From Bacteroidales bacterium (GTDB taxonomy: Bacteria; Bacteroidota; Bacteroidia; Bacteroidales; VadinHA17): a DNA stretch of 64,000 nucleotides. Below, piece after piece: positions 25,075 to 52,226 of this stretch (position 1 is the first letter of the stretch; the number at the start of each line of letters is the position of its first letter). The translations under genes and the position numbers were made by a program. The notes below the pieces were generated by a model. It saw only the letters and a program-made list of their open reading frames with translations. It had not been told where the DNA came from and ran no database searches. Location of the stretch: positions 1-64,000 of the forward strand of contig JAIPBU010000009.1 of assembly GCA_021738535.1 (NCBI GenBank), in the 5' to 3' direction.

Positions 25075-25692
25075 TTAAAACATAATTCCTGCACTTACGA
25101 CAATTGCATTTGTACGACCATCGAGAGTATAGGTCTGACCACCCACCTCAATTTCATCTCCGAAATTATTCAATCCTCCTTCGTACCTAACATCCAGTGT
25201 GAGTTTTTTAAACAGATCAATTCCCAGACCTGCCTGGTAACCAAATGTAGCTGTCTTATAAAGATTTTCAGCATCATTGATAAGGTCACTTGCCGAGCTG
25301 ATCATAACTGAAGCTGCCGGACCGGCCATTATTCGTACAGGTCCCAGCTTAGCACCGAGCATTATTGGCACATCCAGCTTATTAAATTTCTGACTTTTCA
25401 GTTCCTCTGTACCTGCTGTGACATCTTCAACTATCATATTATTCTCTGCCATGGAGAACAACACTTCAGGTTGTACCATAATACCAAGCATCGAAATTCT
25501 GAAGAAAGCACCACCGTGAAATCCCCAGGCAGCATCCTGGGCAGCTGTAATGGTTTGCTGCGCGTTTACACTAAGAGGGTCTTCAAGTTTAAAATTATTG
25601 GATGTTGCACCGGCCTTCAGCCCCCAGCTAAACTGTGCAAATGCACCTGTTGAAATTATTACGCCAAATAGAATTAGAACTAATTTTTTCAT
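25075..25692 (-). CDS. PorT-like outer-membrane beta-barrel protein
   Basis: A 205-residue exported protein with signal peptide MKKLVLILFGVIISTGAFAQ and the start FSWGLKAGATSNNF, typical of the Bacteroidota outer-membrane beta-barrel (OMP_b-brl_2/PorT-like) family. Alternating strands run throughout (MVQPEVLFSM, KFNKLDVPIMLGAKLG, FGYQAGLGIDLFKKLTLDVRYEG), and the protein ends NAIVVSAGIMF with the C-terminal Phe expected for BAM-mediated insertion. It is monocistronic, with its own intrinsic terminator. The specific role is unknown. Confidence 0.87.
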   Translation of the reverse strand: MKKLVLILFGVIISTGAFAQFSWGLKAGATSNNFKLEDPLSVNAQQTITAAQDAAWGFHGGAFFRISMLGIMVQPEVLFSMAENNMIVEDVTAGTEELKSQKFNKLDVPIMLGAKLGPVRIMAGPAASVMISSASDLINDAENLYKTATFGYQAGLGIDLFKKLTLDVRYEGGLNNFGDEIEVGGQTYTLDGRTNAIVVSAGIMF

Positions 25693-45713: not shown

Positions 45714-47159
45714 ATGTCCGTAATGATAATAAATAAAATGCATTTTCGTCTCTGCATCACGGCAATAATAATATCAGTCCTCTCACTCACTGCTGAGGGA
45801 CAGCAAAAAACTGTCATTATTGACACCTCAGACTACCTGCCCTACCCGGATTACATCAATACTAACCTTATGATAGCGTCATCCAAAGGGTACACCAGTG
45901 AGATACACCGCTTAATTAAACTTGGAGCTGATGTAAATGCCACAGACTTTGACAACATTAGTCCTTTGATATATGCAGTAGCCAATAACAATTTATCTAC
46001 TGCACAAGCCTTGCTCGATCATGATGCTGAAACTAATATTATAAGCAATAGCGGAGAAAGTGCCCTGCACATAGCAGCCAAAGAAAATATGCTTGAGATT
46101 GCTGAAGCCCTTATCAGGAGCGGAGCTGATACTGACATTGAAGATAAGCACGAGGCAAGCCCCCTGCACTATGCAAGTGCTTTTGGCTACCTGTATATGT
46201 CTGACCTTCTCATATATTATGATGCTGAAATTGACTACAGAGATAAAGAAGGAAATACTCCTTTATTATCGGCAGTTTATTCTGCAAAAGCTAATACTAC
46301 TGATCTGCTTATCCAATCCGGATCAAATCCTGACATTCCGGATAATGAAGGGTATACACCCCTGATAGTGGCGGCACAAAATAATGATACCCTTATTATG
46401 AGTCTTCTCCTTAAGGCAGGTGCAAATATTTATGCCACTAACGAATACAATTATGACCCCCTTACAATGGCAATCAGGAACAATAACCCTGAAGCCTGCC
46501 GGTATATTATCGACATGATTGATCCTGCTGTTTATAAAAAGAACAGTAAACTTTCACCTTCAACGGTTGCAAGGAAGTACTCCAGGAAAAAGATGCTGGA
46601 AGAACTTGCCAAAGCTGGTTTTAAGGAGTCTCCTAAGCTTAATTTTGACCAGGCAAGAATTGAAACAGGCTTCAAAACCGACATGCGTGATTTCTATGCG
46701 CGTCTTGGAGTGAGTTTTAAAGACCCCCTGCTCAAAATTATGATAAATGCAGGTTTTGAGATGAAACCTCTTTACAATAAAGTGCTTGTACAAACCTCAG
46801 AAGACTCATTTACACAATATTATGACAAGAGGTACGTATTATATGCCGGCGCCGGTAAATCATTCCTGATCATGGAAGATTATGATGATGGTAAACTTTT
46901 TGCTGACCTTAACCTTAATGTTGGCTACATGATGGCTGCCAGGTACAGAGGCACAAACATAAAACCCTCTGACAAATTCAGGCTGATGCCCGGAGTAAGA
47001 CTAAGATGGGATTCAGGCAGGATAGACATATTTGCCGGTTATGATTACATGAAGACCGGTCTGTACAGAATAGGCCCGGGTTGGTTTAGCCTTGGTGCAA
47101 GCTATGATATATATTTCGACAAGGCCCGGGGACCACAAAAACGAATTAAATGGTATTGA
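45714..47159 (+). CDS. Ankyrin-repeat protein with C-terminal beta-barrel
   Basis: An exported protein of 481 residues from the first ATG. ATGs at 45714, 45723 and 45738 are possible; the last gives MHFRLCITAIIISVLSLTAEGQ, a clean signal peptide, and suits the promoter position. Six to seven ankyrin repeats occupy roughly residues 45-300 (GADVNATDFDNISPLIYAVA, GESALHIAAKENMLEIAEAL, GNTPLLSAVYSAKANTTDLL, GYTPLIVAAQNNDTLIMSLL). From about residue 325 the sequence changes to alternating amphipathic strands (YVLYAGAGKSFLIMED, LFADLNLNVGYMMAARY, RIDIFAGYDYMKTGLYRIG, WFSLGASYDIYF) like an eight-strand outer-membrane barrel. A periplasmic ankyrin plus barrel is unusual. The gene overlaps a Cys-rich lipoprotein gene by ten bases. 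Confidence 0.8.
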   Translation: MSVMIINKMHFRLCITAIIISVLSLTAEGQQKTVIIDTSDYLPYPDYINTNLMIASSKGYTSEIHRLIKLGADVNATDFDNISPLIYAVANNNLSTAQALLDHDAETNIISNSGESALHIAAKENMLEIAEALIRSGADTDIEDKHEASPLHYASAFGYLYMSDLLIYYDAEIDYRDKEGNTPLLSAVYSAKANTTDLLIQSGSNPDIPDNEGYTPLIVAAQNNDTLIMSLLLKAGANIYATNEYNYDPLTMAIRNNNPEACRYIIDMIDPAVYKKNSKLSPSTVARKYSRKKMLEELAKAGFKESPKLNFDQARIETGFKTDMRDFYARLGVSFKDPLLKIMINAGFEMKPLYNKVLVQTSEDSFTQYYDKRYVLYAGAGKSFLIMEDYDDGKLFADLNLNVGYMMAARYRGTNIKPSDKFRLMPGVRLRWDSGRIDIFAGYDYMKTGLYRIGPGWFSLGASYDIYFDKARGPQKRIKWY

Positions 47160-47569
47160 AAAAGATACATATCAGCATTCTCCTGGCTTGCATGATACTC
47201 ATGACTGCATGTGAAGAATTGTACATCGTTGATTGCAGTCAGTGCGAAACAACAGAACCCACAACCTGCCTGCTTGAAATTCAGCTGGGTGAATCCAGGA
47301 GCTTCAACATAATCTATGATGTTACTATTTACCGCGGCAGAATTGAGGACGGTGTAATTATTGAAAACCTGCAGACCTCCGAATCCATCAATTATCCCGT
47401 AGCTCTAAACTCGGAATATACAGTAACATCTACCTTTACGGTTAATGGCAAGGAATACACAGCCATAGATGCTACCAGGCCAAAAGTGGACCTGATTACC
47501 GATATGTGCGAGGAAACCTGCTACTGGGTCTATAACAACAATGTTAACCTTGGTATCAAGTATTATTAA
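47150..47569 (+). CDS. Cys-rich lipoprotein, unknown function
   Basis: A 139-residue lipoprotein with lipobox MILMTACEE (Cys21). Eight residues later come paired Cys (VDCSQCETTEPTTC), and near the C terminus a second set (DMCEETCYW), so up to five further Cys could form disulfides. The middle is a beta-sandwich-like run (FNIIYDVTIYRGRIEDG, TVTSTFTVNGKEYTAI). No family is recognised. The ATG lies inside the last codons of the ankyrin-barrel gene, so the two are translationally coupled and probably act together at the outer membrane. Confidence 0.75.
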   Translation: MVLKKIHISILLACMILMTACEELYIVDCSQCETTEPTTCLLEIQLGESRSFNIIYDVTIYRGRIEDGVIIENLQTSESINYPVALNSEYTVTSTFTVNGKEYTAIDATRPKVDLITDMCEETCYWVYNNNVNLGIKYY

Positions 47570-47586: not shown

Positions 47587-48801
47587 ATGGTTCATGCTTT
47601 TAAATACGGACACGGATATTTGAATTATGAAATACCTTCTGACCATAGTATAATAAACAGTAGTCCTCCGCCGGGCCATCCACACAGGAAAAACTTCTCA
47701 GAACAGCTTAGTTTCCTGCTTAAAAAAGATATCAAATCAGCCGGTATAATTGTATCAGATAAAACCAGGCTATGTGGGTATGACAGGTATCTCCCCTGGC
47801 TGCTTGATGAACTTCACAATAAAGGTATAAAAAAAGAAAATATCAGGTTCTACATTGCCTATGGGACACACCCGGCACAAAATACTGAAGAAAGTCTGAA
47901 GGCTTACGGCTATATTTTCAGAGAATATGAATTCATTCATCACAATTGTGATGATCTTACTTCTTTAATAACCCCGGGTAAAACGTCGAACAATACGCCC
48001 GTAAGCATAAGAAAGGATATATTTGAACATGATCAATTAATCCTGTTCGGCTCTGTTTCTCATCACTATTTTGCAGGTTACGGAGGCGGCAGAAAGCTAA
48101 TATTCCCCGGTCTTGCCGGCCGCGAGGCCATATATTCAAATCACAAGCTCTTTATTGATTTTGAAAACAGGTGTTTGAAAAAAGGATGTACCTCGGGCAG
48201 ACTTGCAGGTAACCCTGTAGCGGAAGACCTGCGTGAAGCAGATCGCTTCACACCGGATAAAATAATTATTAGTGCCCTGCTTAATCCTGATGGAGAAGTG
48301 AGTAGTTTTACCTTTGCATCATCCTATGATGAGTTCCTGGAAACATGTAATATTTATGATGAGCATTACCGCGTCCGCGATAACAGCAATTATGATAATG
48401 TAATAGCCAGTGCAGGAGGCTATCCTAAAGACATCAATTTCATACAGACTCATAAATCAGTGCACAATGCAGCATCTTTTGTAAAAGACGGAGGTAATTT
48501 ACTGATATTAAGTGAGTGCAATGACGGCATTGGCAAGGAAGAATTCCTTGATATATTCAAAGGAGATAAAGATGAGATATACGCTTCGCTCCAAAAACAC
48601 TATTCAGGTAATGGAGGCACAGCTTTATCTCTGGTATCAAAGACAGAAAGGATAAATATCAGCATGATTACATCCCTTAACCACAATACCTGCAGGCAGC
48701 TTGGCATCAGCAAGCTTTCAAAAAGCGAGGCACCGGGTTTTATCGAAGGGATGAAAGGCAATACAGCCATTATTGAAAATGCCAGTATCGTTTATAAATA
48801 A
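47587..48801 (+). CDS. LarA-like nickel-dependent racemase family protein
   Basis: A 404-residue protein of the lactate racemase LarA (DUF2088) family. The family's active-site stretches are visible: YIAYGTHPAQNTEE, then GSVSHHYFAGYGGGRKLIFPG with the His pair and the lysine that holds the nickel-pincer cofactor, and SNHKLFIDFE with the second His. It should racemise or epimerise a 2-hydroxy acid. The larB, larC and larE cofactor-synthesis genes are not in this window and must be elsewhere if it is active. It starts 17 bases after the Cys-rich lipoprotein and may share its transcript, although the link in function is unclear. Confidence 0.87.
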   Translation: MVHAFKYGHGYLNYEIPSDHSIINSSPPPGHPHRKNFSEQLSFLLKKDIKSAGIIVSDKTRLCGYDRYLPWLLDELHNKGIKKENIRFYIAYGTHPAQNTEESLKAYGYIFREYEFIHHNCDDLTSLITPGKTSNNTPVSIRKDIFEHDQLILFGSVSHHYFAGYGGGRKLIFPGLAGREAIYSNHKLFIDFENRCLKKGCTSGRLAGNPVAEDLREADRFTPDKIIISALLNPDGEVSSFTFASSYDEFLETCNIYDEHYRVRDNSNYDNVIASAGGYPKDINFIQTHKSVHNAASFVKDGGNLLILSECNDGIGKEEFLDIFKGDKDEIYASLQKHYSGNGGTALSLVSKTERINISMITSLNHNTCRQLGISKLSKSEAPGFIEGMKGNTAIIENASIVYK

Positions 48802-50494: not shown

Positions 50495-51268
50495 TTAAAT
50501 AATTTCTTCAGACAATCTTTTCCTCAGGTTATTTGGTTTAACATTCTCCTCCACATCTCCCATCTGTGCAATTGATATCTTTCCTCTCTCTTCCGAAACA
50601 ACAATTACAATGCAGTCTGTTAACTCACTAATCCCGATGGCGGCACGGTGCCTCATACCAAACCTGGGGGGCAGGTTAGGGTTATCAGTTGCAGGCAGCG
50701 GACAGCGGGCAGCATAGATCTTTCCAGACTCTATCAGCACAGCTCCATCGTGCAGGGGACTATCTTTTACAAATATTGTTTTAAGCAGTTCTGCACTTAT
50801 TCGTGAATTGATTATCTCTCCACCTTCAGCGTACATCTCCAGTGTACTCCTCCGGGCAATAACTATCAGAGCCCCGTTCTTCGATTCAACCAGCCATTCA
50901 ACTCCCCTGATAATTTGCTCAATATCTGTTTGTTTCTGTCGCGAGGCAACAGATCCCCCGCTAAAAAAGCGCTCAATTGAGAAACTGCCACTTCCCATAT
51001 ACCGGCTTCCGAGCATGAGCAGGAATCGGCGTATCTCCTGTTGAAAAACAATGATCAGAATAATCACACCACCTCCAAATACTGCTGTCATAATAGAACT
51101 GATCAGCTCCATTTGCAGTAACTCTACAACCTTCCAGAAAAGATAAACAACGAAAATACCCATGAATATGGTGATCGCTGCCGAGCCCCTTATAAGCCTG
51201 TAAAGCTGGTAAAGGATAAAAGCTACCAGAACTATATCAATAATATCCAGGATTGTGATAGGTGGCAT
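50495..51268 (-). CDS. cdaA: Diadenylate cyclase (CdaA)
   Basis: A 257-residue membrane enzyme that condenses two ATP to cyclic di-AMP, a second messenger for potassium and wall homeostasis. Three N-terminal transmembrane helices (within about residues 8-80) precede the DisA_N domain. Its signature motifs are SPLHDGAVLIE (DGA) and RFGMRHRAAIGISE (RHR), followed by VVSEERGKISIA. It lies 52 bases downstream of folP in the same unit, a pairing I recall from other Bacteroidota. Confidence 0.94.
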   Translation of the reverse strand: MPPITILDIIDIVLVAFILYQLYRLIRGSAAITIFMGIFVVYLFWKVVELLQMELISSIMTAVFGGGVIILIIVFQQEIRRFLLMLGSRYMGSGSFSIERFFSGGSVASRQKQTDIEQIIRGVEWLVESKNGALIVIARRSTLEMYAEGGEIINSRISAELLKTIFVKDSPLHDGAVLIESGKIYAARCPLPATDNPNLPPRFGMRHRAAIGISELTDCIVIVVSEERGKISIAQMGDVEENVKPNNLRKRLSEEII

Positions 51269-51320: not shown

Positions 51321-52160
51321 TTAGCAAGCTCCCGTACTGTTAAGCAATTTAATAGTCTGCACAGCCTCAGCCACATCATGAACCCTTATGATGGAGGCCC
51401 CTTTTACTAATGCAAGTGTATTTAGAACCACGGTACCTGTCAGGCTCCCGCCGGGATCAGTATCAAGGGTTTTCCATATTAATGATTTTCTTGACAATCC
51501 GGCAAGCAGCGGAAGATCAACAACTTTAAACCTTTCAAGTTCGTTAAGCAAACTGAAGTTATGTTTAATGGTCTTACCGAAACCAAAACCGGGGTCAATA
51601 ATAATATCATTGACACCTCTGAGAACAAGTTCATGCTTCCTGTCGGCAAACCACTTAATTATCTCTGCAAAAATATCCTCATAATGAGCTTTGTGCTGCA
51701 TGTCTGCAGGTGTTCCTTTCATATGCATAAGGATATAAGGAACATTATACTTTTGAATAATATCAAACATTGTATTGTCATAAGTTCCTCCATAGATATC
51801 GTTAATAATATCTACTCCGTAATCCCTGATAGCTATCTCTGCTATTGAAGACCGGAAGGTGTCCAGCGACAAAATAGCCCGGGGAAATTCTTTGCGTATC
51901 TTTTCAAGTGCAATCAGCACCCTGTCAAGTTCCTCTTCTTCACTTACTTCATCAGCGCCCGGCCGGGATGAATAAGCACCAACATCCAGAATGTCAGCAC
52001 CATCTTCAAGCATTGATTCTGCCCTCTTCAGAATATCACTATTGCTGCTCAGCCTGCTACCTTCATAGAATGAATCGGGTGTTATATTCAGGATACCCAT
52101 GACTCTTGGTTTATCCAGATCCATTAAATCCCCTCTGATATTAATTGTTTTTGCCATCAT
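51321..52160 (-). CDS. folP: Dihydropteroate synthase
   Basis: A 279-residue TIM-barrel enzyme that joins p-aminobenzoate to the pterin diphosphate in folate synthesis, the sulfonamide target. Signature motifs are RVMGILNITPDSFYEGSR, ADILDVGAYSSRPGAD and IIIDPGFGFGKTIKHN, with LLAGLSRKSLI and RVHDVAEAVQ near the end. ATGs at 52160 and 52157 are both good starts; the open stretch upstream begins at a TTG and is rejected. A TATTTTTGC -7 box lies 34 bases upstream. cdaA follows in the same unit, and tmk diverges. Confidence 0.94.
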   Translation of the reverse strand: MMAKTINIRGDLMDLDKPRVMGILNITPDSFYEGSRLSSNSDILKRAESMLEDGADILDVGAYSSRPGADEVSEEEELDRVLIALEKIRKEFPRAILSLDTFRSSIAEIAIRDYGVDIINDIYGGTYDNTMFDIIQKYNVPYILMHMKGTPADMQHKAHYEDIFAEIIKWFADRKHELVLRGVNDIIIDPGFGFGKTIKHNFSLLNELERFKVVDLPLLAGLSRKSLIWKTLDTDPGGSLTGTVVLNTLALVKGASIIRVHDVAEAVQTIKLLNSTGAC

Positions 52161-52193
52161 AAAAATAAATAAGCATTTTAGCTGTGTCACAGG

Positions 52194-52226
52194 CAAAAAT
52201 AATCTTTAAGAATTATTTATTCCAGA
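52194..52226 (-). promoter_or_regulatory. Probable promoter of folP-cdaA
   Basis: On the minus strand TATTTTTG (52201-52194) followed by C fits the -7 box, and TCTG 21 bases upstream is one base off the -33 TTTG. It places transcription start near 52187, upstream of the ATG at 52160. Confidence 0.55.

Follow-up and report, generated by a model that had tools for sequence, protein, structure and literature searches.

An exported ankyrin-repeat protein that ends in a probable outer-membrane barrel is encoded directly ahead of a small cysteine-rich lipoprotein in the window analysed here (the whole stretch of DNA, 64,000 nucleotides long), and the arrangement is not a chance one, as 67 of the 247 Bacteroidales genomes examined carry both genes. 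Our judgement leans, if only slightly, toward a two-protein outer-membrane unit in which barrel and lipoprotein pair with one another and the ankyrins serve as a periplasmic adaptor, most likely in the role of an anchor or sensor.

The first gene (45714..47159, like all parts of the pair on the + strand) encodes 481 aa, its homologues in 69 genomes being mostly of ~450-550 aa, and translation may actually begin at the ATG at 45738, not at 45714. The protein begins with a signal peptide (45714..45803) composed of a hydrophobic core and AEGQ, with cleavage beside Q30, a residue conserved in 94% of the 69 homologues; the proposal of the sequence-only reading that ankyrins follow a signal peptide is thereby supported, and with it their export. 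About seven ankyrin repeats plus a cap occupy residues 52-303 (45867..46622), where Pfam Ank_2 matches in several stretches from residue 52 to ~260 (E 6.5e-40), and its presence in 17 of 17 homologues of our first alignment places the protein firmly in the ankyrin-repeat family. A reading of the protein as an injected Dot/Icm effector was rejected: its scores against the NCBIfam Ank models are far below cut-off, as for generic repeats, and the signal peptide also contradicts it. The C-terminal domain, probably an eight-stranded outer-membrane barrel by its strand pattern and by weak profile matches, spans residues 306-467 (46629..47114) and is followed by a tail (residues 468-481, 47115..47156) whose ending, KxIxWY, recurs in homologues, with an aromatic residue at position 480 in 82% of them. 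The codons for the final KWY and the stop hold the ATG of the second gene, such that the two reading frames do overlap by exactly 10 nt (47150..47159), as had been noticed at the outset; the same overlap is found at many other loci, including those of distant relatives. The second gene (47150..47569) encodes 139 aa and was correctly taken for a lipoprotein, as a lipobox, MTAC, can be read from its sequence and the lipid-bearing cysteine, Cys21, is present in 57/57 aligned members; the mature domain would comprise residues 21-139.

Co-occurrence was assessed by profile searches of 247 genomes drawn evenly from the order Bacteroidales. The profile of the C-terminal domain matched in 69 of them and that of the lipoprotein in 70, with both genes in 67, the domain alone in two, and the lipoprotein alone in three, by weak matches only (Fisher p 4e-54 for the domain and lipoprotein together, uncorrected for relatedness). 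In 53 genomes the genes lie within 251 nt of each other on the same strand. At least nine others (G257, G092, G261, G167, G163, G182, G193, G078 and G067) hold the pair unlinked, with the contig continuing past the barrel gene without a lipoprotein and the lipoprotein encoded elsewhere in the genome, so linkage can be lost while both genes persist. Outside Bacteroidales, and besides the window genome, the barrel profile was found in two of ~395 genomes of the phylum (one match weak) and the lipoprotein profile in four of ~395 (three weak), and the pair is thus almost absent beyond the order. The linkage that the sequence-only reading had suggested looking for across Bacteroidota is supported, mainly within Bacteroidales. 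A single-query search of genome contigs matched only Bacteroidales bacterium UBA9300, with a relative at 62% identity, and no relatives were found in viral contigs.

Clustering of the neighbours at ~77 loci revealed no third conserved gene, the commonest other neighbour being present at nine. In the window, a homologue of LarA-like nickel-pincer racemases (47587-48801, +) lies 17 bases 3' of the lipoprotein gene; it matches NPN_LarAH10 of NCBIfam with E 9.5e-79, under the cut-off of the model, is found at this place in the closest relatives alone (L018, L020), and is probably a late neighbour. Farther downstream, a DacA/CdaA-like gene (50495-51268, -) adjoins a folP-like gene (51321-52196), both named from sequence alone, and in relatives belonging to the same family the two are conserved as a block close to the pair, with no linkage to it elsewhere. 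Shorter proteins of the barrel family, 384-387 aa in length and with no adjacent lipoprotein, are encoded at L124 5272-6435 and L126 4843-5997 (genomes G196 and G089), and G196 additionally has a second, longer copy. A 749-residue reading frame at L113 1313-3562 joins an apparent radical-SAM N-terminus to the ankyrin-barrel protein, a fusion that may be a frameshift or an assembly artefact.

Is the C-terminal domain a membrane barrel? The domain, ~175 residues and all-beta, belongs to no Pfam family, the window protein has no match to the PF13505 (OMP_b-brl) profile above its gathering score, and PDB sequence profiles gave no credible match to the domain. When averaged over the 69 homologues, hydrophobicity alternates by residue in eight stretches (residues 314-322, 327-336, 340-350, 374-386, 395-407, 422-432, 436-445 and 458-467), with a strength that was matched by only three of 1000 column shuffles. 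The linkers between strands 2 and 3, 4 and 5, and 6 and 7 are 3, 8 and 3 residues long, and those between strands 1 and 2, 3 and 4, 5 and 6, and 7 and 8 are 4, 23, 14 and 12. Eight-stranded barrels of the OmpA type, with both ends in the periplasm, have short turns on one side of the membrane and longer loops on the other, so the order observed fits an eight-stranded barrel with both termini periplasmic. The composition of the polar face of the predicted strands (36% Gly/Ala/Ser, 28% charged) comes near to the values for PF13505 barrels collected from relatives (29% and 26%), whereas the lipoprotein differs (13% and 45%). Weak OMP_b-brl matches were obtained for three of the 69 homologues (best E 6e-4), and a comparison of profiles with the PF13505 set reached 47%, across about three strands, where shuffled or reversed controls gave ≤2% and the lipoprotein, which was meant as an unrelated control, gave 20%. 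A separate gene in the window (25078-25674, -) encodes a PF13505 outer-membrane barrel, with E 2.5e-9.

Structure prediction was less informative. The AlphaFold model of the full protein, made from one sequence, has a pLDDT of 32, and that of the barrel domain, made from two sequences (the domain and one relative), is all-beta at a low-confidence pLDDT of 46; its strands mostly coincide with those predicted here, with strand 2 missing, and a Foldseek search with this weak model returned nothing significant (best E 0.13). The domain might instead be a soluble periplasmic beta domain, in which case the protein would be a secreted adaptor of the lipoprotein. The lack of a confident barrel in either model is as this alternative would have it, and alternating hydrophobicity is not peculiar to barrels, being seen in soluble beta proteins, the lipoprotein among them. 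We nevertheless regard it as decidedly unlikely, given a polar face that resembles those of barrels and not that of the soluble-like control, the weak OMP_b-brl signals, the alternation of short turns and long loops, and the existence in one genome of a stand-alone protein consisting of a signal peptide and the barrel (L125, described below). The barrel originally proposed thus stands as very probable on strand pattern, face composition and weak family matches, with both AlphaFold models of low confidence.

The most conserved part of the domain, together with the short loop at 323-326, is the loop that joins strands 3 and 4 (residues 351-373, 46764..46832; consensus RPxxxRVL...YQxWExR). Its mean JS is 0.40, compared with ~0.33 for the strands and 0.15 for the turn between strands 4 and 5, and its length varies only from 22 to 25 residues across the homologues. 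As the outside loops of ordinary outer-membrane proteins are usually their most variable part, the conservation of a loop predicted to face outward suggests that it meets a fixed partner or acts as a plug.

Which part of the protein would hold the lipoprotein? The sequence-only reading had the ankyrins binding a partner, and one version of this idea is that they themselves bind a lipoprotein facing the periplasm, with the barrel as an anchor only and the ankyrins supporting their operon partner in the manner of AnkB. Ankyrins are indeed binding modules, here retained in every homologue of the first alignment, and the two genes overlap. There is also precedent for periplasmic ankyrins coupled to the product of an operon neighbour: in Pseudomonas aeruginosa, catalase B requires AnkB, an ankyrin-like protein of the periplasm, for full activity (AnkB/KatB), and Leptospira has an ank-katE operon whose catalase is periplasmic (PMC7567364), examples which also make the earlier statement, that ankyrins normally act inside cells, true only in part. 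Three observations argue against ankyrin binding. The first is an ankyrin-less pair, albeit in a single genome: at L125 (G364, outside the class of the window genome), a stand-alone signal peptide and barrel (278-865) is followed directly by the lipoprotein (3-440), within which the contig ends. This pair is present in one of 32 genomes of its family, the 31 relatives being without both genes, and horizontal transfer is possible. The second is that the divergence of the lipoprotein follows that of the barrel better than that of the ankyrins: over 57 pairs, the partial distance correlation is 0.50 between lipoprotein and barrel with ankyrins removed and 0.21 between lipoprotein and ankyrins with the barrel removed, and the barrel correlation is the larger in 97% of half-samples, to which slippage of the ankyrin repeats in the alignment could contribute. 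Finally, there is the unusual conservation of the long barrel loop. From the ankyrin-less pair, the distance correlations and the loop, the lipoprotein appears to be tied to the barrel rather than to the ankyrins, and we consider binding by the ankyrins rather unlikely.

The lipoprotein has no credible match in Pfam or NCBIfam, and a PDB profile match to BtSGBP-B, at E 0.06 only, was taken as chance. Besides the lipid-bearing residue it has four cysteines, C29, C32, C120 and C124 (47234..47521), of which C32 and C124 are present in 57/57 aligned members and C120 in 54/57. One member, L082, lacks both C29 and C120 and keeps the other two, and members with C29 or C120 displaced have another cysteine close by. 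From this joint loss, the conservation and the nearby substitutes, we infer disulfides C29-C120 and C32-C124, which are predicted to tie together the two ends of the domain. It could be argued instead that the cysteines bind a metal or heme and that the unit handles this cofactor at the outer membrane, since most members have CxxC plus CxxxC and in other bacteria catalase activity is reported to depend on ankyrin proteins, probably via heme (PMC7567364). However, the spacing of the first pair varies from C-x2-C to ~C-x6-C, C29 and C120 are lost jointly in one member as disulfides predict, and the ~77 loci show no conserved neighbour that is a catalase or metal gene, all of which makes a cofactor role very unlikely indeed. 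Regarding surface export, the published export signal of Bacteroidetes surface lipoproteins (LES) comprises a polar or basic residue and then two acidic residues at positions +2 to +6 (PMC5080379). The lipoprotein family resembles it loosely, with D/E at +2 in 34/57 and at +3 in 24/57 members and with the K, or Q/S, before the acids mostly missing.

Several of these elements have counterparts elsewhere, and it is already known that ankyrins can be exported (PMC7567364) and that barrels can have lipoprotein partners (RcsF-OmpA, SusC/D). With OMP_b-brl (PF13505) and OmpA/OmpX-type barrels, the window protein shares a signal peptide and, by prediction, eight amphipathic strands, a small lumen, and short turns on one side with longer loops on the other. 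OmpA also bears a periplasmic binding domain. In contrast to those barrels, the window protein would have its periplasmic part at the N-terminus, in the form of ankyrins; the long loop of its family is conserved and not variable, and there is a conserved lipoprotein partner. We know of no barrel in AnkB or in the Leptospira ank-katE product. What these have in common with the window pair is that ankyrins would act with a periplasmic partner encoded alongside (PMC7567364), but that partner is a catalase in their case and a small lipoprotein here; the window ankyrins are exported by sequence, and no adjoining catalase gene was seen among the conserved neighbours at the ~77 loci.

Lipoproteins that work with barrels offer a second comparison. 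RcsF is a lipoprotein with two disulfides. It is described as forming complexes with the outer-membrane barrels OmpA, OmpC or BamA and reporting envelope damage (PMC7553776, PMC9907809). The window pair likewise combines a lipoprotein with two (predicted) disulfides and a probable outer-membrane barrel, but unlike RcsF, which has no single operon partner, it is genetically fixed and mainly confined to Bacteroidales, and no Pfam or PDB relative was found that would make the lipoprotein kin to RcsF. SusC is a large TonB-dependent transporter, unlike the window domain, which is small, predicted to be eight-stranded and without transporter features. The resemblance is that Sus systems are outer-membrane complexes of Bacteroidota with a surface-exposed lipoprotein (PMC5080379), and a barrel-lipoprotein complex of this phylum is what we predict here. 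A fusion of ankyrins to a barrel in Bacteroidota was not described in the open literature searched, most subscription journals being outside it.

In the model we favour, the eight-stranded barrel would span the outer membrane, its two termini both on the periplasmic side, and the ankyrin repeats would extend into that compartment as an arm for binding proteins; the lipoprotein, an all-beta domain putatively pinned by its two disulfides, would associate with the barrel. The two reading frames, the ankyrins, the conserved pairing and the conserved cysteines are directly observed; barrel, topology and disulfides are inferred from sequence features. The remainder we offer as a hypothesis: the lipoprotein, if flipped to the cell surface, would probably dock on the conserved long loops at residues 351-373 and 408-421, and the unit would be an anchor or sensor coupling it at the outer membrane to a putative periplasmic partner held by the ankyrins. 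Eight-stranded barrels do not enclose an open channel of sufficient width for transport, so movement of substrates by this route is unlikely, and anchoring or trans-membrane sensing is the most economical role.

A gene pair that has no family name and is retained together in dozens of families of Bacteroidales makes a good candidate for some outer-membrane function not yet described. With it, the use of ankyrins as binding repeats in the periplasm becomes testable, as does the conservation, in place of variability, of a long loop predicted to lie on the outside of a small barrel. One might speculate further, on what we consider a rather doubtful footing, that environmental Bacteroidales possess a dedicated outer-membrane relay, with a surface lipoprotein on the barrel loops and an ankyrin arm that signals to a periplasmic partner. 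If true, such an outer-membrane barrel, carrying ankyrins and having an obligate lipoprotein as its co-receptor, would to our knowledge be the first of its kind to be described.
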